A DNA stretch of 31,395 nt from a virus, in the IMG/VR virus record IMGVR_UViG_3300037189_004340, positions 1-31,395 of that record. One strand, given 5' to 3'. The notes under the pieces are model-generated. The model ran no database searches, had not been told where the DNA came from, and saw only the letters and a program-made list of their open reading frames with translations. Both the position numbers and the translations under genes were made by a program. How positions within the stretch are numbered: position 1 is the first letter of the stretch; each line of letters begins with the position of its first letter. This document shows positions 14,351-30,766 of the stretch, piece after piece.

Positions 14351-14962
14351 TTATGGTGCGGTGTCAAATAGCTTTAATCCTTCAGTAACCCTATCGTGCC
14401 GCAAGTTGATTGGCAGCGTGGCGCAATATCCGCGCTCATCGCCATCTTGCCATTGTGTAACGTGATACGCTTTGACTTTGATTGAAGGCGGCACAAGGTA
14501 AAGCGCCCTCATGTTTAGCCATGCTTCTGCGCAGTTGCATCGGTCGATTGTATCGGCGGCGATGCGTGCCGCCTCTACGTGTTCGCGTGTTGCGCTCCAG
14601 ATGCCGCCCCACGCCTGCGTTTTGCCGTTATACATGATGCGCATGGATTTTGCCTGCCCTGCCTCTGCTAGCCAGTCTGCGCATTCTCGCGATAGCCAAA
14701 TGTCGCAATCCATTTTCATCAGCACCTCCCCTGCTTGTGAGTTCGCCAGCATTCCATCCATGATCGCCTTCGCGCAAGAATTGCCATATATGCCGCGACC
14801 GTGCGTGCTGTAATAGCCGTAAACAACGTCATCAGGCGGCGTTGTCCATTCCGTAGGGTCAATCATTATGTCAGCTTGCCAGCCTAGTGACCGCATCCGT
14901 GCTTGGCACGCACGCGCAACGGGCATGTCTGATTCTCTGGCTAGTATAAACGCTCTGGTCAT
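14351..14962 (-). CDS. Possible glycosyltransferase-like (GT-A) protein in the tail-tip region
   Basis: From ATG at 14962 (ATGA overlap) the protein is 203 aa. It starts MTRAFILARESDMPVARACQ, a beta strand followed by a helix, and has VLMKMDCDIWLS, where DCD could be a DxD metal/nucleotide-sugar site. GGIWSATREHVEAAR and a conserved Trp/Cys region (DRCNCAEAWLNM) follow. The layout resembles small GT-A-fold glycosyltransferases. A position between tail-tip genes is unusual and suggests modification of tail or fibre. Moderate to low certainty. Confidence 0.45.
   Translation of the reverse strand: MTRAFILARESDMPVARACQARMRSLGWQADIMIDPTEWTTPPDDVVYGYYSTHGRGIYGNSCAKAIMDGMLANSQAGEVLMKMDCDIWLSRECADWLAEAGQAKSMRIMYNGKTQAWGGIWSATREHVEAARIAADTIDRCNCAEAWLNMRALYLVPPSIKVKAYHVTQWQDGDERGYCATLPINLRHDRVTEGLKLFDTAP
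14360..14367 (-). promoter_or_regulatory. TTGACACC element before the tail-tip beta protein
   Basis: The octamer ends 12 nt before ATG 14347, inside the last codons of the preceding gene (encoding FDTAP). Confidence 0.55.
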
Positions 14963-15708
14963 GTGCATACGCTGTCGATTCCGATTTCCTCTAGGTTGTC
15001 AGATAGCGGTCTTGTAGCTACTGGCTGGCCGATTCCGTGAAGATAACCGCTGATAAATGACAACCGCGCAAGCTGTGTCGGCGTTGTCTCTGGCTCTGTC
15101 GGGCAGTCGATAATCCGAAAATCCGCCGTCAAGCCAGTGGTGTGGAAGATGTGTGAGCCAGTTAGGAATGGCACTAGCTTCACGCCGCTTCCGTTGGTCT
15201 GCAACTCTGCGAGCTTGTAGTTGTATACGCCATCAACCGTATCTGGGATGTAGTTGCGCGACTCGGCGGCGGTTGACCCTGCATTGATTACTACTAAAGT
15301 CAAATCTTCGCCGCCTTTGACCCTTCCAGATTCATCCTCTTTGACTTGCACGAAAATCCCGTCGCCAACGGCCATGGAGAACTTTGTAGGATCGTCATTT
15401 ACATCCAGCCGATTGTCGCATTCATGCAAAATCAATGCGTTTTCGCCGTCTAAGGCTGAAATCGCACGCTCGGCAACGTAGCCTTGCGCCACGGTGACGT
15501 AGTAAGCATCTGAAACAGGATCGCGCCCAAGCGTTAGCTGAAAAGGATTTTGCTCTACGTATTGGCGCGTGCTTGTTCCGACTGGCGTTCGGTCACGCAA
15601 TCGCTGCAATGACGAGCGAATGCCGTTTGCCCATTTTGCCGTGATCGGGTCACCTGATCGGATAAGATCAGGCAACTGAATCGGCGCTTCTCCGTTTCTT
15701 ATTTTCAT
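14959..15708 (-). CDS. Tail-tip/baseplate-associated protein (249 aa)
   Basis: ATG at 15708 overlaps the previous stop as ATGA and gives 249 aa. The N-terminus (PIQLPDLIRSGDPITAKWAN) carries a short helix, IRSSLQRLRDRTPVG. The rest is beta-rich with acidic turns (FSMAVGDGIFVQVKEDESG, LTLVVINAG). It is probably a structural tail-tip or fibre-attachment protein, judging from position and composition. No specific family recognised. Confidence 0.6.
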   Translation of the reverse strand: MKIRNGEAPIQLPDLIRSGDPITAKWANGIRSSLQRLRDRTPVGTSTRQYVEQNPFQLTLGRDPVSDAYYVTVAQGYVAERAISALDGENALILHECDNRLDVNDDPTKFSMAVGDGIFVQVKEDESGRVKGGEDLTLVVINAGSTAAESRNYIPDTVDGVYNYKLAELQTNGSGVKLVPFLTGSHIFHTTGLTADFRIIDCPTEPETTPTQLARLSFISGYLHGIGQPVATRPLSDNLEEIGIDSVCT

Positions 15709-16517
15709 GTGTCGTAAAGGAAAGAATCCCATCCATCATCCTCTGAAAGCGTCCATTCCAGATTTGTGCGGTATAGCTCGCCAGATTGCGATTGTGAAAC
15801 ACTTGTCAACATCCAGTCACGCGTTCCCGTCGGCTCTGGCGGCGTTCCTCGCGGTGTTGCAATCTTGCCAAGTTTGTTGATTTGCTGTGGCGTGAGTTGG
15901 TCAACGCCCTCCGTCGATTCGTTCCATGTATAGACACTTTTTTGATACGTGGTCTGTCCTTGCTGAATTCGTGTTGCAAATTCGATTGCGTCCGCGCCGG
16001 CTAACTGGTCAATGTATGCCACCTCAGCGTTTGCTTCATTGTTGAGATATAAAACGCCATCGCCTATGTTGTAGGTCAACTGCCCCGCAATTAGCATTCC
16101 AAGCAAAGTCTTATCAAGATCGACTAGCGGCTTCCATTTCGGATGCTGCGAGAAAGAAACGTCTGATAGCTGCCCTGTGAGCGTGTATGTTGGCTCTACT
16201 CCAGGCGTAAGCTCATCGCCTTCAAATTGCGCCGTGCCGCCCGTAGCGGTCACGTTGAAAGTGTAAAGATCGCCATCCGTGCGGACAAAGGTCACCGTGT
16301 CGATTGTCAGGAAAGAATCAAACGGCGCTGGCACGTTAGGGTCAACCGATGAAAGCAATGTCCCCCGCACAAAGTTTGGAATAACGTCCGCAAAGTCTGA
16401 TGCCTTTACAACGATTTCATGCGTTGCCGTCCATCCGCCTGATTCGCTGCGTGTGATTGAAAGCCCGGGTTGAGCTTTCATTTCATTTACCCCAAAACCA
16501 AAAATTGTTGCTGCCAT
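15705..16517 (-). CDS. Distal-tail-like structural protein (270 aa)
   Basis: The 270-aa protein lies directly after the tape measure gene (1-nt gap), the position of lambda gpM/gpL or distal tail proteins. It is beta-rich: WTATHEIVVKASDFADVIPN, TIDTVTFVRTDGDLYTFNV, YTLTGQLSDVSFSQHPKW, and a C-terminal SGELYRTNLEWTLSEDDGWD. No catalytic motif. A distal tail or baseplate hub role follows from synteny only. Confidence 0.6.
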   Translation of the reverse strand: MAATIFGFGVNEMKAQPGLSITRSESGGWTATHEIVVKASDFADVIPNFVRGTLLSSVDPNVPAPFDSFLTIDTVTFVRTDGDLYTFNVTATGGTAQFEGDELTPGVEPTYTLTGQLSDVSFSQHPKWKPLVDLDKTLLGMLIAGQLTYNIGDGVLYLNNEANAEVAYIDQLAGADAIEFATRIQQGQTTYQKSVYTWNESTEGVDQLTPQQINKLGKIATPRGTPPEPTGTRDWMLTSVSQSQSGELYRTNLEWTLSEDDGWDSFLYDT

Positions 16518-16518
16518 A

Positions 16519-17781
16519 TTAGTTTGAGAATCTTGCGCTTGTTGCGCTTGGTTGTTTTGCCCATGCCTCCAAAATGCCAGCTTTTACCGCATCGCTCATT
16601 TCTGCCGTGATGCCAGTTTTAATGCCTTTTTCCACTTGCGATTCAATGTTGACTTTTTCAAGTGCTGCGTTTGCGCCAGTGGTTTCCATCGCTCCCGTGA
16701 ATTGCTCGCGGAAGTTCGTTCCGCCTCGCGTAAATTCTCGGATGCCCTCGCCAATGCGTTTTGCTCTGTCAGGGTCAAGCATGGAAACTCCGCTTAGATT
16801 TTCCGCGCCGTATGCTAGTCCTTTTCCTAGTAATTCTCCTAAGTTGTCCAATCCTGCAATCAGACTTGCTTGTAATCCTGCCAGAAATACGGTTCCGACT
16901 GTTTCGCCAATCATGGCAAACTTGTCAGTGTTTCCCTGTAGTGATTCAGTGATTGCCGCGCCAAGAAACTCGCCAGTTGCAGCGAATTTGCCCTCCAATT
17001 GCGGCAGGAAATTATTGCTTGCGTCCAGCGCGTCTTTCAGCCCCTCATTGAATCCCGTGCCAAATGCGACTTGTAGTTGAGTTACAGCCGCTTTTGTCTG
17101 ATTGATTTTCGCGTTGGTGGTGGTGCTTCCTTTTTCAATCGCTTTATAGAATCTCCCGCCTTCGCTGGTTGCAACTTTCAATGCTTGCGCGACAACACCA
17201 ATGGTTATCTTGCCAGCTTCCATGTCCTTGAACAAATCAGAGTATGACCTGCCCGTTTTTTCTGCAATAATTTGCAGCGGGTTAAATCCACTTTCGGCAA
17301 GCTGGTTTAATTCTTGCCCCATTAGCTTTCCTTTCGCCGCAATTTGAGCAAACGCCACTGACAACCTCCCGAATCTCTCGCTGTTTCCAAGGGAAATATC
17401 GCCAATCATTTGCAGCAATGGCGTAACATCTTTAATTGCAACGCCGAATCCAAGCATGAGCTTTGCGCCCTCTGCGTAGTCTTGCAAATTCAGCGGCGAT
17501 TTCTTTTCTTCCTCCCTGAATGTTTTGATAAGGTCTTTAGCGATTTTTACGCTTCCAGTCAAAACCTCAAATTGCAATGTCAAATCCTCTACGGACGCGG
17601 CAGCGTTTGAACTAGATACGACAAGCGCACCAAGTCCAGCAGCACCAGCAGCGCCCATTGCGGTCAATCCAGCAACTCCAGTTGCCGTTGCGCTACCGAT
17701 GTTCGCAATCGAGCCTTTAACGCTGCGCAGCGTCTTCTCTAGATGCGTTGCGTTGCCGCGAATATCTACGGTAAATGCCAT
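16519..17781 (-). CDS. Tape measure protein (short)
   Basis: The 420-aa protein begins with MAFTVDIRGNATHLEKTLRS, followed by an Ala/Gly-rich hydrophobic run (GVAGLTAMGAAGAAGLGALV), then the TP901/lambda-H-type core: ALKSP-like KKSPLNLQDYAEGAKLMLGFG, LGNSERFGRLSVAFAQIAAK, GKLMGQELNQLAESGFNPL. A second hydrophobic segment (GTVFLAGLQASLIAGLDNL) follows. At about 0.15 nm per residue it implies a tail near 60 nm, shorter than lambda. The start overlaps the end of the frameshifted T extension, the standard G-T-H order. TTGACACC lies 17 nt before the ATG. Confidence 0.88.
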   Translation of the reverse strand: MAFTVDIRGNATHLEKTLRSVKGSIANIGSATATGVAGLTAMGAAGAAGLGALVVSSSNAAASVEDLTLQFEVLTGSVKIAKDLIKTFREEEKKSPLNLQDYAEGAKLMLGFGVAIKDVTPLLQMIGDISLGNSERFGRLSVAFAQIAAKGKLMGQELNQLAESGFNPLQIIAEKTGRSYSDLFKDMEAGKITIGVVAQALKVATSEGGRFYKAIEKGSTTTNAKINQTKAAVTQLQVAFGTGFNEGLKDALDASNNFLPQLEGKFAATGEFLGAAITESLQGNTDKFAMIGETVGTVFLAGLQASLIAGLDNLGELLGKGLAYGAENLSGVSMLDPDRAKRIGEGIREFTRGGTNFREQFTGAMETTGANAALEKVNIESQVEKGIKTGITAEMSDAVKAGILEAWAKQPSATSARFSN

Positions 17782-18020
17782 ACTTCTTCTAATTCGCTGG
17801 TGTCAATTTCATGCGCTGCAAATGCAATTGGTTCATGCTGTTCCGTTTGTATCTCTCGGCGGTAAGTCTTAGCGCCTTTGCGGTATAAGATCGCGTGAAA
17901 CAATTCCGCCTCTTCGTCGATTGGTAGCTCATCTATCTGCTTTCGTGTCCATCCGTATTCTGATGCCAGCAAGTCAACTATAAAGGCGCGGTCACTTGGC
18001 GGGTCACCTCGGTCTGTGGC
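17766..18020 (-). CDS. T-domain of tail assembly chaperone, reached by -1 frameshift
   Basis: After slippage at GGGAAAG the ribosome reads 84 further codons here (ATDRGDPPSDRAFIVDLLAS..., ending VWHLP), making a 192-aa G-T-type fusion with the first 108 residues of the upstream protein. The domain is acidic and helical (DLLASEYGWTRKQIDELPID, EEAELFHAILYRKGAK), like other T domains. No sensible independent start exists; the frame opens inside the G gene. In lambda, gpGT recruits gpH and gpV for tail assembly. The extension ends 16 nt inside the tape measure gene. Confidence 0.85.
   Translation of the reverse strand, partial: ATDRGDPPSDRAFIVDLLASEYGWTRKQIDELPIDEEAELFHAILYRKGAKTYRREIQTEQHEPIAFAAHEIDTSELEEVWHLP
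17799..17806 (-). promoter_or_regulatory. TTGACACC element before the tape measure gene
   Basis: The octamer ends 17 nt before ATG 17781, inside the T-frame coding region. The gap is purine-rich (GAATTAGAAGAAG). The spacing differs from the other sites. Confidence 0.4.
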
Positions 18021-18343
18021 TTTCCCTCGTCGGCAGTAACGACTTGAGCCGCCTCCCATCGGTTGATTACGCCTTGCACGTATGCGCCAATCTCGTTCTC
18101 GTCGTCTTCGCTAAGGTCGAGCGCAACGGCGGTCATCGCGTCGAAAAACTCATCGTCGGAACGCATCGCCTTTCGCACTTCCTGATCATCAGTCATTGCT
18201 AGTGCCGCATAGCCATAAATCAGCACCGTGCTATGACTTTTCCCGCGCCGTTTCTCGTCGGGGAGAAATTCGCATAACCGCGCCCAGATGAAGTGATTCA
18301 GTGGTCGCAATTCTTTTCCTTGTATTGTTGGTGGTGTGTTCAT
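17978..18343 (-). CDS. Tail assembly chaperone G-like protein
   Basis: The unshifted product is 121 aa, MNTPPTIQGKELRPLNHFIW..., with a helical body and an acidic part (VALDLSEDDENEIGAYVQGV). It lies immediately before the tape measure gene and overlaps the T frame by 82 nt. The slippery heptamer occurs at codons 107-108, so both a short G form and a long GT form are made. The position, overlap and heptamer match lambda G/GT. ATGA overlap with the 233-aa gene. Confidence 0.85.
   Translation of the reverse strand: MNTPPTIQGKELRPLNHFIWARLCEFLPDEKRRGKSHSTVLIYGYAALAMTDDQEVRKAMRSDDEFFDAMTAVALDLSEDDENEIGAYVQGVINRWEAAQVVTADEGKPQTEVTRQVTAPL
18020..18026 (-). promoter_or_regulatory. Programmed -1 frameshift site GGGAAAG
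   Basis: On the minus strand the codons read G-GGA-AAG in the G frame, exactly the X-XXY-YYZ heptamer used in lambda G/T. Slippage moves GGA-AAG to GGG-AAA and continues with GCC in the T frame. Confidence 0.88.
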
Positions 18344-19041: not shown

Positions 19042-19056
19042 TTTAAGTTGTAAGCG

Positions 19057-19434
19057 TTACGCGCTGGCGATAGTCGGGACGTAAGTAGCGGAAAGGGAGA
19101 TGCTGCGGTAGTCGTCAGCGGCCTGTGTGACCTCGATGGTATCAATGATGGTCAATCCGCCTGTCATTGCGCCGATCAAGTGATCGGTCGGAACGGTTGC
19201 AAGAGATAAGCTAGTGCTGATACTTGCGGAAAATGGCGATGTGGCGGGAATCTTGCCGTTTAGGGCAATCGTGCAATCTTCGTCAAAGTCGCTGCGCCCT
19301 GTGCGGTCGCCCGTGATATTCATGACGTTCTTGGTTTGGCACTTGTAACTCCATGTTACGCCCTCCAATAAAAAGCCAGTTTGCTGCGCAGGAATGCCCC
19401 ACACTCCGTTCACAGATCCAAGTAAAGTTGCCAT
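19057..19434 (-). CDS. Major tail tube protein candidate
   Basis: The 125-aa beta-rich protein lies after the tail terminator, the lambda V position. Segments such as GFLLEGVTWSYKCQTKNVM and ITGDRTGRSDFDEDCTIALN, then SISTSLSLATVP and DYRSISLSATYVPTIAS, fit the single-domain tail tube fold. It is shorter than lambda gpV because it lacks the C-terminal Ig-like domain. TTGACACC lies 11 nt before the ATG, and the ATG is in the arm of a short CCATGC/GCATGG hairpin. Confidence 0.65.
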   Translation of the reverse strand: MATLLGSVNGVWGIPAQQTGFLLEGVTWSYKCQTKNVMNITGDRTGRSDFDEDCTIALNGKIPATSPFSASISTSLSLATVPTDHLIGAMTGGLTIIDTIEVTQAADDYRSISLSATYVPTIASA

Positions 19435-19445
19435 GCCTTTTGCAT

Positions 19446-19453
19446 GGTGTCAA
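19446..19453 (-). promoter_or_regulatory. TTGACACC element before the tail tube gene
   Basis: The octamer ends 11 nt before ATG 19434. The gap is ATGCAAAAGGC, giving a CCATGC/GCATGG hairpin that includes the start codon. Confidence 0.6.
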
Positions 19454-19456
19454 AAT

Positions 19457-19858: not shown

Positions 19859-20559
19859 TTAAGATTTCGGAAAATTCTTTTAGCTGCGGTGATACTGCGT
19901 CGATAGCCGTCCGCAATTGCCGATTGCACGTTGCCATGATTTGAGTTGCGCTTGGCGTAGGCATAGTCAACCTTGTTCGTGAGAAGAACGGAGCTGCTCA
20001 TAAGTTGCCGCTTGACTAGTTTTGACTCGCCAGCACGCGCATTTACATGGCGGCGAACCCATCGCGGAACGCCTTTGATTTTGCGGATTTTGCCGCGCAC
20101 GGTTTTTAGCAATGGCGAATCAATTGTTTCTCCCGCCTGAATCCATCCCGCTTTTGCCAATCCCGCTTTCGCCATCTGTGAATCGACATATTGCTTTAGC
20201 TCGGAGCGGTCAAAGGTCTTGCGCTTTGGCTGAAACTTCGCAGGCGGCCTAACCAACACTTGAAACTTGGCATTCTGGGAACGAAGCTGCCGATGGATGC
20301 TTTTAATGTCACCCTCAAATCCCTTGAACTCGGCATAACGAGCCGCTTTATGAACCTGCTTTGCGATGCTGCCCATGTATTCCTGCCCAACGTCATTCGA
20401 CAATCCGAACGGTTGAACCTTCCGCGCAAGTTCTTTTGCAACGGACGTTCCAATGATCGCGACAGTTTCAGCAACGCTCACTTGCGCCCTAGCTGCAAAC
20501 GCTTTCAATTCTGCCTCTAGCTTCGCTGATTGGCGCTTGCTTATTTTTACGTCAATCAT
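19855..20559 (-). CDS. Neck/minor tail protein, gpZ-like
   Basis: The 234-aa basic protein lies between head closure and tail terminator. Features include an N-terminal helix (AELKAFAARAQVSVAETVAI), LARKVQPFGLS, and Arg/Lys-rich segments (RPPAKFQPKRKTFDRSELKQ, GKIRKIKGVPRWVRRHVNAR) typical of lambda gpZ and HK97 gp10-type neck proteins that attach tail to head. It has ATGA overlaps on both sides. Confidence 0.65.
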   Translation of the reverse strand: MIDVKISKRQSAKLEAELKAFAARAQVSVAETVAIIGTSVAKELARKVQPFGLSNDVGQEYMGSIAKQVHKAARYAEFKGFEGDIKSIHRQLRSQNAKFQVLVRPPAKFQPKRKTFDRSELKQYVDSQMAKAGLAKAGWIQAGETIDSPLLKTVRGKIRKIKGVPRWVRRHVNARAGESKLVKRQLMSSSVLLTNKVDYAYAKRNSNHGNVQSAIADGYRRSITAAKRIFRNLK

Positions 20560-20870
20560 TTCTCGTTAGGGTCTGCTAGGGTGAAATGAATGCCAATCGT
20601 GCCAACGTCCACTTGTGAGACACGATAAGCCGCGCCGTTGATTGTGCATCGTTTGTTGAGTAGCGTTAGCGGCGAAGTTACGTCCGCAGGTTGCGCCGTG
20701 ACAACTCCGCGCACTTGCGGTTCTAAGCCGCCAAACTCGCCATCCACTGACTTGCTGGTGAGATTGTCCACAACGGAAAATGTCTGCCCTGCGCAGATCA
20801 TTGTCGCAATACCCATTGTTGTGTCGCATTGGTCGTTATGCGACAGCATGAAATCATCCACCAAGCTCAT
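20556..20870 (-). CDS. Head closure/head-tail joining protein candidate
   Basis: The 104-aa protein starts MSLVDDFMLSHNDQCDTTMG and continues as beta-rich segments (TFSVVDNLTSK, VRGVVTAQPADV, AAYRVSQVDVGTIGIHFTLA). Its size, beta content and place before the gpZ-like gene match lambda gpFII-type head-tail connectors. TTGACACC lies 11 nt before the ATG. CATGC/GCATG forms a small hairpin holding the start codon, and a 4-codon ORF within it ends in ATGA at the start. Confidence 0.6.
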   Translation of the reverse strand: MSLVDDFMLSHNDQCDTTMGIATMICAGQTFSVVDNLTSKSVDGEFGGLEPQVRGVVTAQPADVTSPLTLLNKRCTINGAAYRVSQVDVGTIGIHFTLADPNEK

Positions 20871-20881
20871 GCTTTACGCAT

Positions 20882-20889
20882 GGTGTCAA
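20882..20889 (-). promoter_or_regulatory. TTGACACC element before the head closure gene
   Basis: The octamer ends 11 nt before ATG 20870. The gap is ATGCGTAAAGC, giving a CATGC/GCATG hairpin that includes the start codon. Confidence 0.6.
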
Positions 20890-20891
20890 CT

Positions 20892-21623
20892 TCACTCGTA
20901 ATCACGCACGGCGAGGAACGTAGGGAAACGAGGCTTGCCGCTGTCGGTCGTGCCGCAAAATGCAAACGATACTTGCGCCCCGATTGCGGGAAGCGATGCG
21001 CGAACGGCGTTAGTGAATCCCGCGCCAAGGTCAAAAATCATGCCCATCCAATCGACTGTAACGGCGTTTGTCTTGTGAGCAATCACGGTCGCCTCGTCGC
21101 TGTCCACCCATTTGATTTTCAGTAAGTTGTTTGTGCGTTTTTGCTCGTATGCCATAACTGGATTACGGAGCATAACGCCTTCCGCACCCACTGCTCGCAA
21201 TGCGTCAAAATAGCCGTCTAAATGCGCCTCAGACTGGCAAACGATATGCTCCACCACTTGCGCCACAGAAACGCCCTGCAAGGCATCCCGCGCGTATTGC
21301 AAGCGTGCCGTGAAATCGCCTTGTGCCTCTGGTGCGTCGAAAACGTGAAACTTGATTTGCGACCAGTCGCCTGCTTTGCTGCGCACGATTCCGACCGCTT
21401 GCTGAAACATGCCGCGCCCCATGAACAACTCACCATCTAGGGCGATGCTTGGCAGTTGCGCCGTGAACCATGCGGGCGCGTGAAACTTGTTTCCATTGCG
21501 GGAAATGAATTGCTTTCCATCCCACAATGCACGCACTCCATCGAGCTTTTCAGACATGAGCCACCCTGTCGGGTCTTGCCCTTCGTAGGTGTTGGCTAGT
21601 GTCGGTTTCGTGGTCACGCGCAA
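20892..21623 (-). CDS. ATP-dependent DNA ligase
   Basis: The 243-aa protein has all nucleotidyltransferase motifs: I SEKLDGVRA (adenylated K26), Ia-like ISRNGN, III FHVFD, IV EGVMLRNP and V LLKIKW, followed by a short OB-like C-terminal part ending FPTFLAVRDYE. This is the minimal ligase size seen in phages. It seals nicks in dsDNA using ATP. No in-frame ATG exists; TTG at 21623 or GTG at 21617 must be used. Promoter P4 ends right at this point, so the mRNA may be leaderless at GTG. Its place among head-tail genes is unusual. Confidence 0.88.
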   Translation of the reverse strand: MRVTTKPTLANTYEGQDPTGWLMSEKLDGVRALWDGKQFISRNGNKFHAPAWFTAQLPSIALDGELFMGRGMFQQAVGIVRSKAGDWSQIKFHVFDAPEAQGDFTARLQYARDALQGVSVAQVVEHIVCQSEAHLDGYFDALRAVGAEGVMLRNPVMAYEQKRTNNLLKIKWVDSDEATVIAHKTNAVTVDWMGMIFDLGAGFTNAVRASLPAIGAQVSFAFCGTTDSGKPRFPTFLAVRDYE

Positions 21624-21652
21624 GATTTAGCGAAAACCATTTCGCTCGTCAA
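21624..21652 (-). promoter_or_regulatory. Promoter P4 with palindromic spacer, before the ligase gene
   Basis: On the minus strand TTGACG (21647-21652), a 17-nt spacer and TAAATC (21624-21629) lie just after the terminator. AGCGAAA/TTTCGCT (21629-21635/21640-21646) fills the spacer as a palindrome. GTTTTCGC before the -10 and CGCG 3 nt after it match P1-P3. Transcription would begin at about the GTG at 21617. Confidence 0.55.
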
Positions 21653-21664
21653 TCTTTTTTTACA

Positions 21665-21697
21665 GAAAAAAGCCTCGCACCGTTTCCGATGCGAGGC
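21665..21697 (-). terminator. Strong intrinsic terminator after the GT2 gene
   Basis: Minus-strand RNA forms an 11-bp stem from GCCTCGCATCG and CGGTGCGAGGC (21687-21697 with 21672-21682, one A-C mismatch) and a 4-nt loop, followed directly by six U (21666-21671). It closes the sugar-modification cassette. Confidence 0.88.
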
Positions 21698-21730
21698 AGA
21701 CGCAATACACACATCAACCAGACAAAAAAT

Positions 21731-22288
21731 TTACTCAGGCGCAAGCGTTGTTGACGCGTCATGCCTGTAATAATGGAGAACCGTGTCAATATGCAACGCG
21801 GATTTGACTAGCTGCCGCGCTTGCACGCACCACGCCAGGTCTTCGCCGTAGTTCACACTCAGAAATTGGCACTCCTTCACTTTTTCGCGCTTCCATGCGC
21901 AAACGTGCCACGGCGCTCGGAGAGTAACGCCGCCAGCAACGAAGTTCTGGTCTGGATTGTTCAATCCAAAATGCACAATACTTTTCAGCCCGTTGTAAGT
22001 GCTGTCCTGCTTGAATGTAATCACATCAGGCTTGCGCTCAATCGCGGCGAGCAAGCGTGAAACATAGTCATTTGAAATGTCGTCGTCGTCATCCACAAAA
22101 GCGACATACTCGCCCTGTGCAATGTCAACCAATGACTGCCGCTTCTCGCCAATGCTGCGCTTGCGATTGTCGGAAAACACAAGATGTTCTACCTCATGCG
22201 TCCCGATCTGCTTTTCGATTTTTGCGGTTAGCTTTTCGAGTTGGTTTGCCCTGCTCGGAACTGTCGGTGTTAGTATGCTTAGTTTCAT
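21731..22288 (-). CDS. GT2-family glycosyltransferase (185 aa)
   Basis: The 185-aa protein is a compact GT-A enzyme: MKLSILTPTVPSRANQLEKL, GEKRQSLVDIAQGEYVAFVD running into DDDDDIS (the DxD metal site), and NYGEDLAWCVQ as the acceptor/catalytic ED segment. It would transfer a sugar from a nucleotide sugar. It is the last gene of the cassette that begins with the GT/methyltransferase fusion, and a strong terminator follows. Its N-terminal coding region overlaps the small KGD protein by 95 bp in another frame. Confidence 0.85.
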   Translation of the reverse strand: MKLSILTPTVPSRANQLEKLTAKIEKQIGTHEVEHLVFSDNRKRSIGEKRQSLVDIAQGEYVAFVDDDDDISNDYVSRLLAAIERKPDVITFKQDSTYNGLKSIVHFGLNNPDQNFVAGGVTLRAPWHVCAWKREKVKECQFLSVNYGEDLAWCVQARQLVKSALHIDTVLHYYRHDASTTLAPE

Positions 22289-22370
22289 TTTTTCTGAATA
22301 TGTTTTCGTAGTTGTTTCTGTATGCCTCGCCTTTTACTGGTCGCGGCAAATCTCCTTTTCCTGCGCTCAT
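22194..22370 (-). CDS. Small KGDxPRP-motif phage protein (58 aa)
   Basis: ATG at 22370 overlaps the stop of the large fusion gene as ATGA. The first 27 residues, MSAGKGDLPRPVKGEAYRNN then YENIFRK, match a short motif I recognise from many phage hypothetical proteins (S-x-K-G-D-x-P-R-P-V...NY-x-x-IF). The remaining 31 residues are very basic and polar and overlap the next gene in another frame, so the conserved part lies exactly outside the overlap. Function unknown. Confidence 0.65.
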   Translation of the reverse strand: MSAGKGDLPRPVKGEAYRNNYENIFRKNETKHTNTDSSEQGKPTRKANRKNRKADRDA

Positions 22371-24583
22371 TCGTTTTCTTGTTTTGGTTTTTTGACCCAG
22401 CATCGACCAACTGTCAGATAATCCACGCCAGATGTTTCCACAGCGTCTTTCACGCTGTCAACATCAATGTCGTGACCCGCGAAAAAGCCCCCTTGTTTTA
22501 CCTTTGGCGACCATGCTGCAATGTCCGCTTTCACGGAATCGAAATCATGCCCCCCGTCAATGAAAATGCCGTCAATCTCGCCGTCGATGAACTGTTCTGC
22601 CGCTTGCACGCTTTCCATTTCCACAATCTGAATCATATCCGCAACGCCCGCGCGTTCGATGTTGTCTTTGAATTGAGCGAGGATGCTGCCGCCGCAATGC
22701 TCAACATATTGTTGTTGGTCTGCCTTGTCTAGCTCGCCTTTCCATGTGTCAACACAGTAGAGCGTTACGTTCTTGCCCATGCTTTGCAATTCCTGAGCAA
22801 GCGCAATGATGCTTTGCCCTAGCCATGCGCCAACCTCCACGAACTTGCCGCCCTCTGGCAATGCCTCGGCAAGCGCAAAGTAAAGGTTCTGGAAATCGCA
22901 CCATCCATGCACCTGCGAAGGCGTGAGTTTCCCATCCACGAGAAGGTCGAACGTCTTCTTGCCGCGCCGATAGTTCACATCGCTATTGCTTCGCTTGTAA
23001 GTTTCGTCCCACTCGCCTTTTCCGAACAATGGATGATAATGATTGAAAACCAATCTGTCGCGTGCGTCGATGACCACGCCATCCATGAACGCTTTGTGCG
23101 AAAACCACGTATCGGAATACATGGAGAAAAACTCAGGGTGATAGAGATAGCCTTGTTCTTCGTAGCGTTTGCGCGTCAGAATCGACATGCAAAGCAAATC
23201 ATCCTTGCGGTTGCCGTCACTGACTGCTAGCACCTTTGATTCGCTCAAATCGCCAAGCTCGGCAAGGATAAGTTCATCCCATCCCATCGGCGGTTCAAAG
23301 TCATCCGATACTTGCACCAGCACATCGCCGCGGCTTTTCTTTGCCGCTGCGTTCCATGCGCCTACGCATCCGCCAGACAGGACGATTGTGTGATTCGCCA
23401 GGCACAGCGGCAGGCTCGCTTCGTCGTCGTGGTCGATAGCAAAAATATGCTCAATAGCATCTGGATTCTTGGCGCGGCGCAACCATTCCTTGCGGCACAT
23501 CCATGCCTTTTGCGGTCTGCCTCGCGTGGCGTGAAGCAGGCTGATTTTTTTACCGTTCTTGATGAAGTGATTTGTTTCCAGAACATCGGCTTGCGCGATA
23601 GCATTGTTTGCGCGTAAAGCCATGCCACGGAGCGAGACGCCTAAAGAACCGTAATACGGGCGGCGCAAGTTCCATGGTGGATTCTGCGGTATGTCTAGCG
23701 CAAGCATTGCCTTGGTTAGCCCTAGCGCCTTTTCTGGCTCCACGGTCAGCAATGCAAGCGCAAGCTCGCCGTATGCCTCGCGCCGATTCGGGTCGGTCAT
23801 GAGCGCCTGCCCCAGCATCGTGATTCTTGTTTGCAGGTCATCCGACAACTGCGCCAATTGGAAAAACGCTTCGTATTTCTCATTCGTTCCCGCTTCATCA
23901 TCACGCACAAAGTCAATCGCCGCCATGGTCGCATCATCGCGGCGGTCGAGCGCAATCAGCGATTGCATACGATGAAACTTCTGCGAAATGCTGCGCTCGT
24001 CTTCTGGAACGCTTTCGATGATTCGCAAGTTGCGCTCATCGCGCGAACTATGGCGCGGCTCGCTTGCGTGGACAATTTGCGCATGTTCCAGAACTACCGC
24101 TTTGTGGTCTTCTTTCAGCTTGAAGCACTCGTGAATCGGATTTACCCACCGCCCCGCGCCTTTGCGCCAGATGCGTTCGCGAATGTTGATAACGCCGTCT
24201 TCTGGCACTACGTAAGGCATCAGCACGCAATCGACTTCCTTGTCTCGAATGTCTTTCAGCAACAACTTGATTTGCTCGATAGATTCGGCGCTGATTATGT
24301 CATCCGTATCAGCCCACATAACCCATTCATTTTTCGCCATGTCGCAAGCAAGATTCCTCGCACGTCCGAAGTCGTCACAATGTGGCCAATCGCAATCTGG
24401 CTTGTTGAAATACTCAGAAATGCGAACGCCGCGCTTCTCACAGATTTTAAGCGTTCTATCCGCTTTTTGGTTGCCAATCGCACGAACCGCGATTATCTCG
24501 TCAGCTAGTGGTTGGAAGTGATCTAGGAAGCGACCAATGATGGATTCAACATTGCCAACGATAATACATAGACTGATTTTCAT
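22367..24583 (-). CDS. Multidomain glycosyltransferase-glycosyltransferase-methyltransferase fusion
   Basis: From ATG at 24583 the protein is 738 aa. Residues 1-190 are a GT2 domain (MKISLCIIVGNVES, VMWADTDDII with DTDD at 92-95). Residues 190-310 look helical and TPR-like (FFQLAQLSDDLQTRITMLGQ, REAYGELALALLTVEPEKAL). A second GT-A-like domain follows (ISLLHATRGRPQKAWMC, VLVQVSDDFEPP). The last 180 residues are a class I SAM methyltransferase of the Methyltransf_24 type (KFVEVGAWLGQSI, IFIDGGHDFDSVKAD). It could build and O-methylate a glycan on virion proteins, DNA or the host surface. The longer start at 24613 lies inside the terminator stem and is rejected. Confidence 0.85.
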   Translation of the reverse strand: MKISLCIIVGNVESIIGRFLDHFQPLADEIIAVRAIGNQKADRTLKICEKRGVRISEYFNKPDCDWPHCDDFGRARNLACDMAKNEWVMWADTDDIISAESIEQIKLLLKDIRDKEVDCVLMPYVVPEDGVINIRERIWRKGAGRWVNPIHECFKLKEDHKAVVLEHAQIVHASEPRHSSRDERNLRIIESVPEDERSISQKFHRMQSLIALDRRDDATMAAIDFVRDDEAGTNEKYEAFFQLAQLSDDLQTRITMLGQALMTDPNRREAYGELALALLTVEPEKALGLTKAMLALDIPQNPPWNLRRPYYGSLGVSLRGMALRANNAIAQADVLETNHFIKNGKKISLLHATRGRPQKAWMCRKEWLRRAKNPDAIEHIFAIDHDDEASLPLCLANHTIVLSGGCVGAWNAAAKKSRGDVLVQVSDDFEPPMGWDELILAELGDLSESKVLAVSDGNRKDDLLCMSILTRKRYEEQGYLYHPEFFSMYSDTWFSHKAFMDGVVIDARDRLVFNHYHPLFGKGEWDETYKRSNSDVNYRRGKKTFDLLVDGKLTPSQVHGWCDFQNLYFALAEALPEGGKFVEVGAWLGQSIIALAQELQSMGKNVTLYCVDTWKGELDKADQQQYVEHCGGSILAQFKDNIERAGVADMIQIVEMESVQAAEQFIDGEIDGIFIDGGHDFDSVKADIAAWSPKVKQGGFFAGHDIDVDSVKDAVETSGVDYLTVGRCWVKKPKQENE

Positions 24584-24623
24584 AATAAGAAAAAGCGCAC
24601 CGTGCAAACACACGATGCGCTTT
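24584..24623 (-). terminator. Intrinsic terminator after the major capsid gene
   Basis: Minus-strand RNA pairs AAAGCGCATCGTG (24611-24623) with CACGGTGCGCTTT (24592-24604) around a 6-nt loop, 13 bp with one mismatch, followed by TTCTTATT. The ATG of the glycosyltransferase fusion lies only 8 nt beyond the stem, so that gene depends on read-through. The hairpin resembles the one at 21672-21697 (GCATCG...CGGTGC). Confidence 0.82.
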
Positions 24624-24648
24624 AGTCATGCAATTGTCAACCAGAAAA

Positions 24649-25539: not shown

Positions 25540-25541
25540 AA

Positions 25542-25997
25542 TTATTTGATAAGTTGAGCTTTAATTTCTTTTTGGTTTTGATTGTAATACTTGGTTTTTT
25601 CTTCAGGCGAGAGAGTCGCCATGATTGAAATATGGTCGGTTGGCGCTGCTTCGTCGGCGCTTGCGTCAACAGGCGCGATGCCTGCTTGTGCTACGATTTC
25701 AGCGGCGCGAGCTTCGGCGGAAGTGCTGGCTTCGATAACGCTTGCTTCCAGTTCCGCGACTTTGCTTTGAGCTTCGGCAAGCGATGCCGTGAGCGTGTCG
25801 CGTTCTGCGGTGATGCTGTCGAGTTGCGCCTTTACGCTAGCAAGCTCGCCAATCGCGTTCTCAAGGTCTGCCGTGCGCTCGGTGAGTGCTGCGGTCATGT
25901 CGCTGATTTCCGTTTGCGCGGATTCCAGACTAGCTTCCAGCCCTTGCACTTTTTCAGTGAGAGCTGCATCAGGGCGGAATTTGTCGAGGATGCTCAT
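25542..25997 (-). CDS. Nested scaffold protein from an internal start (predicted)
   Basis: Met303 of the protease gene (ATG at 25997) begins MSILDKFRPDAALTEK and a 151-aa product equal to the coiled-coil C-terminal third. TTGACACC lies 12 nt upstream of this internal ATG, as at true gene starts. Lambda Nu3 is made the same way, from an in-frame start inside gene C. Repeated coiled-coil heptads (EKVQGLEASLESAQTEISDM, ERTADLENAIGELASVKAQL) suit a scaffold. Confidence 0.6.
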   Translation of the reverse strand: MSILDKFRPDAALTEKVQGLEASLESAQTEISDMTAALTERTADLENAIGELASVKAQLDSITAERDTLTASLAEAQSKVAELEASVIEASTSAEARAAEIVAQAGIAPVDASADEAAPTDHISIMATLSPEEKTKYYNQNQKEIKAQLIK

Positions 25998-26903
25998 TGC
26001 ATTTATTTTGGTGTCAAAAATTTCGTCGGCAAATCCCATCTCAATTGCCTGCTTTGCGGTCATCCATGTTTCTTTTTTCATGAGAGCGCGAATGTCGTCT
26101 TTGTCGCGTTTTGTCTTCCCGGCGTAGATGCCCGCGATTTCGTCGCTGATGTTTTCGAGCAATTCCGCATACCGTAGCAAGGTTTCACTGTCGCCTTGTG
26201 CGCCGCCTGATGCCTCATGAATCATGATTTTCCCGTTGCTGGCAATCTCCACTTTGTCAGCCGCCATCGCAATTACGCTGCCCATGGATGCTGCCAGGGT
26301 ATTGATTCGCGCCGTGACGTAAACGCCGCGCTCGCGTAGCTTTTTCATTTCGTTGAAAATGCGATAGCCCTCGAAAACGCTGCCACCGTCTGAATGGATT
26401 TCAACGTCGAGCGTATCAATGGCGTTATCTGCGCAGGCTATGATTTCACCGAATGCGTAGTGATTCTCCACGGCTTTCATTCCGTAAACCTTGGCAATGT
26501 CGTCGATGAGTTTGTCCACGCTGATCTTGTCCACGTGGTCATTCAATTTCACCTTTGCCGCTTTGTTATCAATCGTAATCATAAAATTATCTGCGTTTAG
26601 TTGTTTGTTTTTTTGATTTGCCCATGACTTGCCAGCATCGCCGCCCCATAGCGCCCATGCGATGCGCCCCGCTGACGGGTAACCCTCCTCGCCTTGCCGG
26701 AATCCTTGCGCCTCCTTGTCAACTTCGTGCCGTGCAAAATAGCTAACCATGCGCCGAACTGTCTCAGGCGATAGATTAGCGCGATTGCTAATGTCTCGCG
26801 CACGCGCAACGCCGATTGCCGTCCCTCCACGGTTGAACTCGGCACGCCACGCAAGTCCGCGCCGCGCCTCGTCTGCCATTTCGGTTGTCGGCTTTAGGGT
26901 CAT
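25542..26903 (-). CDS. ClpP/S49-type prohead protease fused to scaffold
   Basis: The 453-aa protein has three parts. Residues 1-100 form a phage-specific N-terminal domain (RARDISNRANLSPETVRRMV, FARHEVDKEAQGF, GYPSAGRIAWALWGGDAGKS). Residues 105-300 form a ClpP fold with EIHSDGGSVFEGYRIF, the catalytic Ser in LAASMGS (S206), His in KIMIHEASGG (H229) and an Asp near TKRDKDD. Residues 303-453 are a coiled-coil scaffold tail. It would process capsid and scaffold during head assembly, like lambda C/Nu3. The start overlaps the 120-aa gene as ATGA. Confidence 0.88.
   Translation of the reverse strand: MTLKPTTEMADEARRGLAWRAEFNRGGTAIGVARARDISNRANLSPETVRRMVSYFARHEVDKEAQGFRQGEEGYPSAGRIAWALWGGDAGKSWANQKNKQLNADNFMITIDNKAAKVKLNDHVDKISVDKLIDDIAKVYGMKAVENHYAFGEIIACADNAIDTLDVEIHSDGGSVFEGYRIFNEMKKLRERGVYVTARINTLAASMGSVIAMAADKVEIASNGKIMIHEASGGAQGDSETLLRYAELLENISDEIAGIYAGKTKRDKDDIRALMKKETWMTAKQAIEMGFADEIFDTKINAMSILDKFRPDAALTEKVQGLEASLESAQTEISDMTAALTERTADLENAIGELASVKAQLDSITAERDTLTASLAEAQSKVAELEASVIEASTSAEARAAEIVAQAGIAPVDASADEAAPTDHISIMATLSPEEKTKYYNQNQKEIKAQLIK
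26010..26017 (-). promoter_or_regulatory. TTGACACC element before the internal scaffold start
   Basis: The octamer ends 12 nt before ATG 25997, inside the protease coding region (it encodes part of FDTK). Confidence 0.55.
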
Positions 26904-27262
26904 GCTTCCACTGCTACAATAAGAATGTTCGCCGCCGATGTGTTGGCTTTAGCGTAAAGCGTTGCACTGCTCGGCGTGAACAGGCACGCACCGCCTGCCG
27001 CAATCTTCGTTTTGAATACGGTCAAGCCAGAATCGCCGCCAAGCTCAACAAATCGCGTGGTGCTGAGGTTGCGAATCATGACTAGCTGCGGAGCGCCAGT
27101 AATGTCGCCAAAATCCACAAGCTCGGCAGTCGTGCCGATGTTCTGCGTAACCTGCGTCATTTGTGCGCCCGCCATGTCCGCAAACAGGTTAGCGGTTTGA
27201 TTTACTGTCGCGTTGTCTTTGCTCGCCTTAAGCGATACGGAAAATGTTACTTCGTTAGCCAT
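26900..27262 (-). CDS. Small beta-rich head protein candidate (120 aa)
   Basis: The 120-aa product MANEVTFSVSLKASKDN... is almost entirely beta: QMTQVTQNIGTTAELVDFGD, APQLVMIRNLSTTRFVELGG, ATLYAKANTSAANILIVAVE. No charged surface helices. It lies between portal and protease, overlapping the portal stop by 8 bp and the protease ATG. This position is not occupied in lambda. It may be a decoration or spike-like head protein, but no family is recognised. Confidence 0.65.
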   Translation of the reverse strand: MANEVTFSVSLKASKDNATVNQTANLFADMAGAQMTQVTQNIGTTAELVDFGDITGAPQLVMIRNLSTTRFVELGGDSGLTVFKTKIAAGGACLFTPSSATLYAKANTSAANILIVAVEA

Positions 27263-28712
27263 TTGCTTGTGGTGTTTGTGTTGGTGTTTCGTTCGGTGTC
27301 AGCATCGCCATTTCTCGGTCTTCGATTGTGATGCCTAGCCCTGATTCGTTGACTGCTTTTTGCTTGAGCTTCTGCATCGTGAGATAGGCGAGGCGTTCGT
27401 CGAGACTTTCCTCGGCGGATTTGCCAAGATAGCCCAAAATGTCTTGCGGATTCAAGAATCCCGCTTTCCACATCTCGATCAGTTCTTTTGATACGCGCCC
27501 ATCGTCGATGGTGAGTTTTTTAGGATAGGTAAACTTCCACTTCCACCAATCGTTCGCGGCTTGCAGTCTGCCAAGTTTGATGAACTTCGCGGTGACGTAG
27601 TTGACGATGCGTGCCGCTGCATACTCCAGCAGGTCTTGACGGTCTTCTACGGCTCGCTGTGCGCGTCCAAGGTCGGCGCGTTCTGCTGTGCCTTGTCCCG
27701 TTGCGTGCCATACCATCGAATACGGCCAGTTAATGCCGGCAAGCGCCTTGCGGATGATGCGATTTTGGAAACTCTCCCACATGTCGCCTGGGCGGTCGTT
27801 TTTTACGACTTCTAGCTTGCCGCCGCTCTTGGCTGCAAAATAACGCACAGTGCCGCCTTGATAGTTCTCGGAGATGATTCCTTGCTCATTGGTGCAACTT
27901 GTGCCGCCGATGACATTCGCGTTGTCGTCAATGTCGGGCAGTCCAGTTTCATTGTGTTCCGTCATGACAATGGACGAAAGCATCAACTGCGCGTATCGCT
28001 CCCATTCGTGAGATTGCAGAGCATCGCGCAGGTCATTGATCGCGTGAGTGAATGCTGGCAATCCGCGCCCTTGTTCCTGCCATGACGGGTCAAAGATATG
28101 CACCATGTCGGCGGCGGCGATGTATTGGATAAGCTCGCCGTATTCGTCGTTGAAGCAATACGCCAATGGCGCACCGTTGCTATAAATGATGCCATCGGTT
28201 AGCGTCTTGCCGCGATACTGCCCCGTGGTCAACTTCCCGTCTTCCATTCCAACGGGCGTTGCAATCCGATGCGCGGGAATTTGCTGAATACGCGGGTAGT
28301 CGTTCTCCGTTTTTGTCAGCAGAATGAACGCCTCACCATCGCGGTCAATGGCGCACGACATGCTGTAAAGGTTCGTCTGAAAAGTATTCTGACCGCCGCG
28401 AACGTCGCAGATTTTATACCATTCGTCATTCAGCAAATCCTCGGCGGATTGCGCGAACTCTCGATCTTTCGACTTGCTTTGCGCCTGCCATGAGCGACCT
28501 ACGGAATACATCGCTTTTTGCTGAATCGCTCCAAGCAAAATGCCATCATTCAGATACAGACGGCGCGAAAACGAAACGAGTGCCTTGCGATCATACGCAG
28601 GCACAAGCTCGCCAATGTCCTTCATCTGCACGGGCTGAAACGGTCTCGCTGCTGAGTAGCGAACCGCCCCTTGTGCTGCCTTCCATGGCTGTCCGTATTG
28701 GTCAACTATCAT
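27255..28712 (-). CDS. Portal protein (lambda gpB family)
   Basis: ATG at 28712 (MIVDQYGQPWKAAQGAVRYS) gives 485 aa. Lambda-type portal signatures include SFSRRLYLNDGILLGAIQQK, MSCAIDRDGEAFILLTKTEN, RIQQIPAHRI, DMVHIFDPSWQEQGRGLPAF, and INWPYSMVWHATGQGTAERA DLGRAQRAVEDRQ in the C-terminal stem/crown region. Twelve copies form the DNA channel and docking site for terminase. A longer reading to 28766 would extend deeper into the gpW-like gene; the chosen start overlaps it by 11 bp. Length is near the family norm. Confidence 0.9.
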   Translation of the reverse strand: MIVDQYGQPWKAAQGAVRYSAARPFQPVQMKDIGELVPAYDRKALVSFSRRLYLNDGILLGAIQQKAMYSVGRSWQAQSKSKDREFAQSAEDLLNDEWYKICDVRGGQNTFQTNLYSMSCAIDRDGEAFILLTKTENDYPRIQQIPAHRIATPVGMEDGKLTTGQYRGKTLTDGIIYSNGAPLAYCFNDEYGELIQYIAAADMVHIFDPSWQEQGRGLPAFTHAINDLRDALQSHEWERYAQLMLSSIVMTEHNETGLPDIDDNANVIGGTSCTNEQGIISENYQGGTVRYFAAKSGGKLEVVKNDRPGDMWESFQNRIIRKALAGINWPYSMVWHATGQGTAERADLGRAQRAVEDRQDLLEYAAARIVNYVTAKFIKLGRLQAANDWWKWKFTYPKKLTIDDGRVSKELIEMWKAGFLNPQDILGYLGKSAEESLDERLAYLTMQKLKQKAVNESGLGITIEDREMAMLTPNETPTQTPQANG

Positions 28713-29004
28713 AAACGGTTCTGTTAAGCAAATCTCCCACCGTGCGCGATTGTGGACGGATTCCACGCTTAATCCACGCGATTGCTTGGTTCAAAACGAC
28801 AAGCCGCGTGGTTTCTGGTAAAGATACGAGAACGGTGTAGCTGATGCCGTTCTTTTGCGAGTTAGTCAGGGTGTTGCCGCCACCTTTGGAAAGCATACCC
28901 GTAAGCGCCGCCGTGCGTGCGTCGATGAGTGAACGCAAAATTGATGGGTCGTCCTGCGCTGCGTCATAATACGCCTGAATCAGTTGTTTTGCCGATACGT
29001 CCAC
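28702..29004 (-). CDS. gpW-like head-tail joining protein, GTG start
   Basis: The 100-aa protein has a helix (QAYYDAAQDDPSILRSLIDA), a central beta hairpin (TNSQKNGISYTVLVSLPETT) and a second helix (LVVLNQAIAWIKRGIRP). This alpha-beta-alpha order matches lambda gpW, and the gene sits between large terminase and portal exactly as W does. It is somewhat longer than gpW (68 aa). No ATG is available: a stop lies at 29020 and GTG at 29004 is the only start. TTGACACC lies 11 nt before it. Confidence 0.65.
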   Translation of the reverse strand: MDVSAKQLIQAYYDAAQDDPSILRSLIDARTAALTGMLSKGGGNTLTNSQKNGISYTVLVSLPETTRLVVLNQAIAWIKRGIRPQSRTVGDLLNRTVYDS

Positions 29005-29015
29005 GCATGATGCGC

Positions 29016-29023
29016 GGTGTCAA
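29016..29023 (-). promoter_or_regulatory. TTGACACC element before the gpW-like gene
   Basis: The octamer ends 11 nt before the GTG start at 29004 and follows the terL stop. The bases between are GCGCATCATGC. Confidence 0.6.
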
Positions 29024-29026
29024 AAC

Positions 29027-30745
29027 TTACTCCGCTTCTTCCTCGTCTTGGCGCGTTCCGATTAGTCCAAACATGGAAGCAAGAACAACTTGCATGGCTT
29101 CGCAGTCAACGGCATGGTTATCATTGTGCCGCTTTTTCCAGACTGCCGTCTTGCCTTCGCCGCGCCTAGCCTCTGCGTCGATTTGCCGCAAGTATTCGCG
29201 TCCTACATCGTCGGGAATCTCCCACGCCACGCCTTTTTGGTTGCGTAGCTGATGCAAAATGTCCTTATGCCGCAAGTTCGACCAGTAGCAAACCATCGTT
29301 TTCTTGCCGTTCGCGCTGGTCACGTTCTGATACCGTGAAAACGCCTTGTAAATCGGTTTCCCGCTCTTTGACGGATGCGGGTAACTGTCGCGCCCATCAC
29401 CGCGCAATGCCAGCCATCCGTATTGATTGCATCGTGAGTAAACTTCGCTTGTCTGATAGCCGCAGTCAATTTGCGTCTTGCGGTTTTCGACTTTGTAAGT
29501 TTCTTGGATGACTTTGCATCGCTCCCATGTGTCAACTTTGCCAAACCACAGCAAGCGGGAGCTGCCATCGTGCCGCCATGCGCGAATCACGCACCAGAAA
29601 TGGTCTGCTTGCCTATCAAGGGTCATAAACCGATGCGCCTCATCGTCGATCAACTCGCCCTTGTCATACTCGGAAATCAGATACCCAAAGTCCGACAACG
29701 TGACGCGGTTATCTTCTTGCTCGTCGCTCCAAAAATCCGCCAAGCGTTTCTGGATGAACTGCCGCAACAAATCAAGGTTTCCCCGCGATACCTCGTCCAT
29801 TGCTTCGCATCGTTCGATTACCAAGCGCCACAATGGGAGTCGCCAATTGGCCAATGCGTTGTAATGGTAGCCCTTTGAATCTGGCATTCCCTCCGTTTGC
29901 TGAATGTATTTTCCCGCCGTAGCAAGTTCGCGCCTGATTTGCGGCTTGTCTTCGATGTGATAGCTGCAATCAGCATTCGCGCACTTGATTCTTGCCGTTT
30001 GCGCCATCGTTACGCGGTCCGCGATTGTCTCATCATAAACCACGTTATCCCATCGCCAGCCCTGCCATGTGCGGCACGCCGGGCATTCATAGCTGAACTC
30101 ATGCTGTGAAGTTGCCGCCCATTTCTTGTGCCAGTCGTCGCCAACGTAGCCGCCCTGAGAGAGTAGGTAGAACTGCCGATTCCAACGGTCATGCAATCGC
30201 CCTTGCGCCTCGCGGATCATGCCCTTGTCCCATGTCCACACCTCGTCGCACAATACGCGACGCATGGATTTTGCTTGTAGTCCGCTGATATTCGCGCCCG
30301 TGAGAAACATGCTCATGTGCGGGAAAATGATCGCGTCTTTCCGCAGCTTGTGACGGTGCTTTCCCGTTGGCAGCAGGCTTGCTGTTTCCTTGGTGTTACG
30401 CAACGTGTATTGCATCCGCGTCTCTGACCAGTCTTTGATGTCGGAATCCGTTTGCCCTACGATCATTGTGCCGCCAGGGTCTTCGGAAATTACGAACGCT
30501 AGGGCCGCCTCGATCATCGTGGTTTTGCCAGTGCCTACGGGAGCGAGCAAGCACACCTCTTTCGCGTCAATATCAGCGAAGGCGTCGAGCGGTTCTTTCA
30601 GCCATGGCGCCGAGTCTGCTTCGTAGGTTGGCGAGAGTCCTTCGTAAAGCGCCACCCTGCCAGTTGCCCATTTGCTGGGCGTGGTTTTCGCAGGTGGACG
30701 GCACGCGGTTCGGAAGGCGGAGAAAAGGATCTCTGTTTTATTCAT
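29027..30745 (-). CDS. terL: Terminase large subunit (lambda gpA/GpA family)
   Basis: The 572-aa packaging motor has a Walker A (LLAPVGTGKTT, about 67-77) and Walker B/acid pair MRRVLCDEVW (D168, E169), plus a zinc-binding insert CPACRTW ... CANADC (about 215-255) typical of GpA proteins. The C-terminal nuclease part contains KTQIDCGYQTSEVYSRCNQY and a late HNDNHAVDCEAMQV. It is shorter than lambda gpA (641 aa) but complete in motifs. It follows the small subunit by 17 nt with TTGACACC in the junction. It cuts and translocates DNA into proheads. Confidence 0.93.
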   Translation of the reverse strand: MNKTEILFSAFRTACRPPAKTTPSKWATGRVALYEGLSPTYEADSAPWLKEPLDAFADIDAKEVCLLAPVGTGKTTMIEAALAFVISEDPGGTMIVGQTDSDIKDWSETRMQYTLRNTKETASLLPTGKHRHKLRKDAIIFPHMSMFLTGANISGLQAKSMRRVLCDEVWTWDKGMIREAQGRLHDRWNRQFYLLSQGGYVGDDWHKKWAATSQHEFSYECPACRTWQGWRWDNVVYDETIADRVTMAQTARIKCANADCSYHIEDKPQIRRELATAGKYIQQTEGMPDSKGYHYNALANWRLPLWRLVIERCEAMDEVSRGNLDLLRQFIQKRLADFWSDEQEDNRVTLSDFGYLISEYDKGELIDDEAHRFMTLDRQADHFWCVIRAWRHDGSSRLLWFGKVDTWERCKVIQETYKVENRKTQIDCGYQTSEVYSRCNQYGWLALRGDGRDSYPHPSKSGKPIYKAFSRYQNVTSANGKKTMVCYWSNLRHKDILHQLRNQKGVAWEIPDDVGREYLRQIDAEARRGEGKTAVWKKRHNDNHAVDCEAMQVVLASMFGLIGTRQDEEEAE

Positions 30746-30758
30746 CTACCGCAGGCGC

Positions 30759-30766
30759 GGTGTCAA
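30759..30766 (-). promoter_or_regulatory. TTGACACC element before terL
   Basis: The octamer ends 13 nt before the terL ATG (30745). Its TGA is also the terS stop. ACCGC/GCGGT forms a small hairpin in the gap. Confidence 0.6.

Follow-up and report, generated by a model that had tools for sequence, protein, structure and literature searches.

A TTGACA element at a fixed distance upstream of late-gene starts in phages and prophages of Verrucomicrobiota, a candidate non-Shine-Dalgarno translation-initiation signal

A phage genome in which the same octamer recurs shortly upstream of one late gene after another raises the question of what this octamer does and what reads it. The window analysed here, the whole 31,395-nucleotide stretch of IMG/VR virus record IMGVR_UViG_3300037189_004340 (positions 1 to 31,395), carries eight copies of TTGACACC (Table 1). 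Each of them is on the minus strand, the coding strand of the late genes, and the plus strand has none. Shuffled versions of the window contain a mean of 0.87 copies on both strands together, with a maximum of three, and 0 of 100 shuffles reached eight, which bears out the excess reported in an initial annotation of this DNA. Six of the eight copies lie 11-13 nt upstream of late-gene starts, and the distances that the annotation had given for terL, the gpW-like gene, the scaffold ATG, the head-closure, tail-tube and 114-aa tail genes and the tape measure gene all agree with those listed. Also as annotated, one intragenic copy is linked to no start, and it is probably not a functional copy. The octamer upstream of the tape measure gene may be mere coding sequence, with a spacing of 17 nt here and 23 nt in relatives. 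There is no GGAG or GAGG near these starts, in keeping with the claim that they lack a Shine-Dalgarno sequence, and the tape measure leader has a purine run, GAAGAAG. An Rfam search returned no match.

Table 1. Copies of TTGACACC in the window and the starts that they precede
Position	Strand	Distance to start (nt)	Gene (coordinates)	Remarks
30759..30766	-	13	terL (29027-30745)	
29016..29023	-	11	gpW-like gene (28702-29004)	start codon GTG
26010..26017	-	12	internal scaffold ATG (25995-25997)	within protease ORF (25542-26903)
20882..20889	-	11	head-closure-like gene (20556-20870)	
19446..19453	-	11	tail-tube-like gene (19057-19434)	
17799..17806	-	17	tape measure gene (16519-17781)	spacing non-canonical, function doubtful
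14360..14367	-	12	114-aa tail gene (14003-14347)	also present in L114
14306..14313	-			inside the 114-aa gene, no start after it

Between the capsid and head-closure genes lies a cargo cassette (20892-24613, minus strand) encoding an ATP-dependent DNA ligase, a 185-aa protein and a 748-aa glycosyltransferase/methyltransferase, the last being the product of the gene at 22367-24613; the tape measure is encoded at 16519-17781. This cassette recurs in G007 and G008, which are distantly related phages with the element. Upstream of the ligase gene, positions 21623-21655 of the minus strand hold TTGACG followed by a perfect-looking hairpin, AGCGAAA-tggt-TTTCGCT, an arrangement that recalls the element with a hairpin but falls outside element spacing.

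A terminase-based scan recovered 42 viral loci, comprising the 26 closest relatives and 16 distant ones (terL identity about 28-35%, several of them short). The octamer occurs in 24 of the 26 closest relatives, with 0 of 26 having it on the opposite strand, and no copy was found on the coding strand of the 16 distant relatives. Upstream of the gpW-like, tail-tube and head-closure genes of the relatives the spacer is mostly 11 nt long while its sequence has diverged. The initial annotation had named loss of the octamer from retained genes at the same spacing as the observation that would speak against the element; for most genes the opposite was found, and the exceptions at terL (L013, L014 and L025) have a start in an ATGA-type overlap with no element. 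In two relatives, L015 and L020, TTGACACG stands in place of the octamer at several genes, with L015 having TTGACACC at terL and TTGACACG at other genes. Megablast against cultured phages gave no match.

Comparison across phages reduces the element to (T/G)TTGACA-N13..16-(A/G)TG. As a recurring sequence the octamer is real. Its essential part, however, is the hexamer TTGACA and not all eight nucleotides; the base immediately 5' of the hexamer is preferably T or G (C in 0 of 126 elements from many phages). When starts from 50 dissimilar proteins are aligned, the consensus is (T)TTTGACA-C/T-C/G-N8-GGC-(A/G)TG, in which the C before ATG was partly forced by the search pattern, and the alignment holds information only in the hexamer, its immediate flanks and the bases beside the start codon. 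The distance from hexamer to start is fixed and short on the coding strand (13 nt, in some cases 14-16 nt). Among orthologues the length of the spacer shifts by 1-3 nt while TTGACA stays constant, a flexibility that resembles the behaviour of a ribosome-binding site.

The same arrangement is found well beyond the relatives of this phage. Scanning the viral_contigs collection with TTTTGACACCNNGCNNNNNNCATG gave 48 hits in 47 stretches. Of these, 43 stand ahead of an ORF that either has 50 aa or more or is still open where the contig ends, and the encoded proteins are highly varied. For a second form, TTTTGACATG-N8-GGCATG, 36 of 53 hits precede real ORFs, whereas a control pattern with lengthened spacing does so in 10 of 41 cases (Fisher 2e-10 versus the first form and 3e-5 versus the second). 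A second element of the same kind is present on the same stretch for 26/48 and 18/53 of the hits, compared with 2/41 in the control. On nine other metagenomic phage contigs, a start follows at exactly 13 nt for 35 of 111 TTGACA, as against 2 of 628 control hexamers, with about one TTGACA per contig being the hit by which that contig was selected. Chance is thus ruled out as an explanation by the window shuffles, the control hexamers and the control spacing.

The cultured relatives indicate Verrucomicrobiota as hosts, these being phage P8625 by terL and Akkermansia phage Moulinsart by one portal. Phage P8625 (L118) carries, at 5412, 10736 and 15558, TTGACA-N17-TATTGG/TATCTG a short way upstream of genes, with a palindrome of the GTATCC..GGATAC type inside it; we rejected these sites as copies of the element, as they form a repeated promoter/operator-like unit and are a different thing. 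A pattern scan of genome_contigs gave eight hits, only three of which are followed by real ORFs, all in Verrucomicrobiota MAGs; the other five are chance matches with tiny ORFs. Short peptide patterns for terL found nothing in genome_contigs, and a terL profile search within Verrucomicrobiota found matches in 28 of the 388 genomes, one of them being G151, where the match lies on a 3.75-Mb contig. In eight prophages picked by terminase homology regardless of the element (one of which, G154, also matched in the octamer-form genome search), 67 of 135 TTGACA lie 12-16 nt upstream of ORF starts and 122 of 135 are on the late-gene strand. By comparison, 4 of 114 TTGACA in 400 kb of chromosome from two hosts lie at that distance, and TTGACA 13-16 nt upstream was found for 0/145 and 0/124 long genes of two hosts. 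The element was not seen in the prophage regions of G134, G136 and G313. Those of G134 and G136 (L281 and L282) have terminase genes with an in-frame TAA and are either decayed or belong to another phage lineage.

A chromosomal signal was likewise rejected, since 59 genomes gave 16 hits at the phage spacing and 27 when the spacing was shortened by 2 nt as a control. The octamer-form pattern has four hits across 145 genomes, and counts of the TTGACA pattern in three host MAGs are close to those expected from base composition. Shine-Dalgarno enrichment of host chromosomal genes is little or none. The element is specific to phages and prophages, is tied to gene starts, and is absent from chromosomal starts.

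The genes that carry the element differ from their neighbours in how they are joined to the gene before them. Only 3 of 70 element genes overlap the upstream stop codon, compared with 183 of 505 other genes (Fisher p 2.5e-9). Stop-to-start gaps of 13-30 nt are found in 36 of the 70, with clusters at 15, 17 and 22 nt. The element often provides the stop codon of the gene before it: a 15-nt gap combined with a 13-nt spacer makes the TGA within TTGACA that stop, and at terL the TGA within TTGA is the stop codon of the upstream gene in relatives; with a gap of 22 nt the upstream stop ends 3 nt before the hexamer. The element is also conserved inside a coding frame, that of the protease. Ahead of the internal scaffold ATG, all 14 distinct sequences share an unchanged TTTGACAC, neighbouring codons (Phe, Asp) show synonymous variation, and the last position is C or G only. 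The element is linked to starts without translational coupling, as expected of a translation-initiation element in the wide sense.

The position of the element, its strand, its conservation, its tie to uncoupled starts and its restriction to phages and prophages are established by these counts, and the fixed distance to the start holds in the window, the 26 relatives, the nine other contigs and the eight prophages. The reading that we prefer, with a probability of roughly 0.58, is that (T/G)UUGACA located 13-16 nt upstream of a start is a phage-specific non-Shine-Dalgarno element for translation initiation or reinitiation in the late operon. This was the first of the options offered in the initial annotation and is the best supported of them, given the fixed spacing, the avoidance of overlaps, the conservation at an internal start, hosts in which Shine-Dalgarno sequences are scarce and the lack of a -10 box; we infer that the element acts in translation by recruiting ribosomes and that its reader is encoded by the host. 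Ribosomes of these hosts hardly use Shine-Dalgarno pairing, and the hexamer may hold or recruit the 30S subunit through a host factor. Alternatively, the substrate could be a ribosome that has freshly terminated 15-22 nt upstream and would be placed on the next AUG or GUG. Late genes that overlap the upstream stop are coupled by the overlap and carry no copy.

Several candidate readers can be weighed. Host 16S 3' ends are canonical (ACCTCCTTTCT) and TTGACA is unable to pair with them; a search for 16S complementarity found no consistent complement, with TGTCAA present in just two of the nine full 16S sequences. Re-targeting of the ribosome by a phage-encoded bS21 was rejected as well, bS21 being found in 0 of 12 records of element phages, some of them incomplete. 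Proteins near-universal among element phages (terminase, portal, protease, capsid and tape measure) also occur in phages without the element, and no gene exclusive to element phages was found beyond this common virion module. The lack of an exclusively shared gene favours a host-encoded reader, possibly a host RNA-binding complex and possibly NusB-S10, and it leaves the suggestion of a phage RNA-binding protein without backing. That a phage-encoded RNA-binding regulator controls the timing of late translation by binding the element and a hairpin in its spacer is consequently improbable, even with the confinement of the element to phages and its location mostly upstream of virion genes. Such a regulator would also fit the excess of stems in the stretch from the hexamer to the first codons: 23 of 70 elements have one of at least 6 bp, versus about 7 expected from shuffled spacers, and the start codon is often paired. 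For example, some phages have a near-perfect palindrome, GACATGCCG-TCTC-CGGCATGTC, and in the window the spacer of the head-closure-like gene is able to pair with the start region (CATGC..GCATG) while the start codon of the tail-tube-like gene falls in a CCATGCaaaagGCATGG hairpin. However, most elements lack a strong stem and the register of the hairpin differs between genes, so the hairpin is probably auxiliary and might serve to reduce the effective spacing or to adjust access. The main rival is that the element is a boxA-like RNA site for host NusB-S10 (NusE) whose main role would lie in elongation or antitermination in the late operon or in control of access to start sites, as at the E. 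coli suhB leader; we regard this as unlikely, but serious, because host rRNA spacers carry a boxA-like TTTGACA. Upstream of 23S, Verrucomicrobiota 16S-23S spacers (L165-L172) contain T(C/G)TTTGACAATT, ATTGACATC or AAAATTGACATC, with listed forms TGTTTGACAATT, TTCTTTGACAATT, ATCTTTGACAATT and AAAATTGACATC, which we call boxA by position and resemblance. TTGACA is present in the spacer of 8 of 9 rRNA loci, several of which come from one lineage or genome, and judged by this likeness the phage hexamer belongs to a probable NusB-S10 site of the host. A host reader of this kind is consistent with the absence of a shared phage factor. In lambda nut sites the boxB hairpin comes after boxA, and some elements are likewise followed by a hairpin. 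Translation of suhB is repressed by Nus factors that act at a boxA near its start codon (PMC5725501). Nevertheless, the 5' half of boxA (GCTC/TTCT type) is not conserved in the phage elements, in which only the base next to the hexamer is biased upstream, and for this reason the NusB-S10 reading is kept as the main rival only. Moreover, antitermination requires no fixed distance to AUG, and no dependence on overlap coupling would be expected of it.

TTGACA is also identical to the sigma-70 -35 consensus, and a promoter, or a leaderless transcript beginning near the start codon, would make sense where a new transcript is needed after a terminator-like hairpin with a T-run, as is found upstream of a few elements (L054). 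We consider this quite improbable. TANNNT at a spacer of 16-18 nt follows only 1 of 126 elements and there is no information at that position, which upholds the initial judgement that the element is not a promoter; a sigma-70 start would fall within the gene beyond its start codon, the spacing is tied to that codon, and no single-subunit RNA polymerase was seen among the phage genes examined. The T-run of such a terminator-like hairpin merges into the element in L054 and in some further contigs with the element (CCCGCCtccGGCGGGTTTTGACA). The remaining proposal, that the element is a short linker at boundaries that furthers modular recombination among phages, is very hard to sustain. The element does lie mostly at gene junctions, and the mixture of forms in L015 can be taken as a sign of past recombination; but a conserved stretch of just 6-8 nt is too short for exchange driven by homology, the position follows the start codon and not the junction, overlapping junctions have no element, and the element is conserved within one ORF, that of the protease.

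Several observations count against a translation-initiation element read by the host. The signal is not used by the host's own chromosomal genes; for a sequence with a host factor as its reader this is odd, and it is here that the explanation is weakest. In addition, there is no consistent 16S complement, and the major capsid gene in relatives starts without the element. Other functions are conceivable because TTGACA is identical to the sigma-70 -35 box and also forms part of the host boxA, and the enriched hairpins that pair the start codon make repression conceivable in place of recruitment. The leader of the capsid gene in L013, L021 and L024 is A/T-rich, AACTGAAAACTAACT(A/T)TT-ATG. CTAAC is enriched upstream of genes in host MAG G022 too.

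How ribosomes select starts in bacteria that make little use of Shine-Dalgarno pairing is an open question, which becomes testable with a phage-only hexamer that stands at a fixed distance from starts, occurs in prophages of one phylum and is absent from chromosomal starts. The element suggests that a sequence-specific non-Shine-Dalgarno reader exists. A broader proposal, which we hold tentatively and at somewhat less than even odds, is that Verrucomicrobiota phages share UUGACA 13-16 nt upstream of AUG as a private start signal, a code for ribosome recruitment that is independent of the anti-Shine-Dalgarno sequence and separate from the rules of the host. The element provides a gene-start rule with which verrucomicrobial phages can be annotated and recognised in metagenomic data, and on which expression tools for these hosts can be built. 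No earlier description of it was found in the literature searched, the coverage of which was incomplete.

The element can be set beside four known systems. Like a Shine-Dalgarno site, it is a short strand-specific sequence at a near-fixed distance from the starts of operon genes with a spacing that flexes by a few nucleotides, but it is unable to pair with the CCUCC anti-Shine-Dalgarno sequence, lies farther upstream (13-16 nt) and serves phage genes only. Kozak-like and A-rich start contexts, as in Flavobacterium, also direct start choice without a Shine-Dalgarno sequence in hosts that retain the anti-Shine-Dalgarno; these are single-position composition preferences near the start that host genes use (PMC6847099), whereas the element is a specific hexamer used by phages only. 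With boxA of rRNA operons, suhB and lambdoid nut sites it has in common the TTTGACA of the host 16S-23S spacer site and a place beside a start codon, where boxA can act at suhB, yet it lacks the boxA 5' half, keeps a fixed distance to the start codon and is repeated upstream of many genes. Finally, it has the same hexamer as the sigma-70 -35 box and differs from it in that no -10 box follows and the start codon lies inside the would-be spacer.
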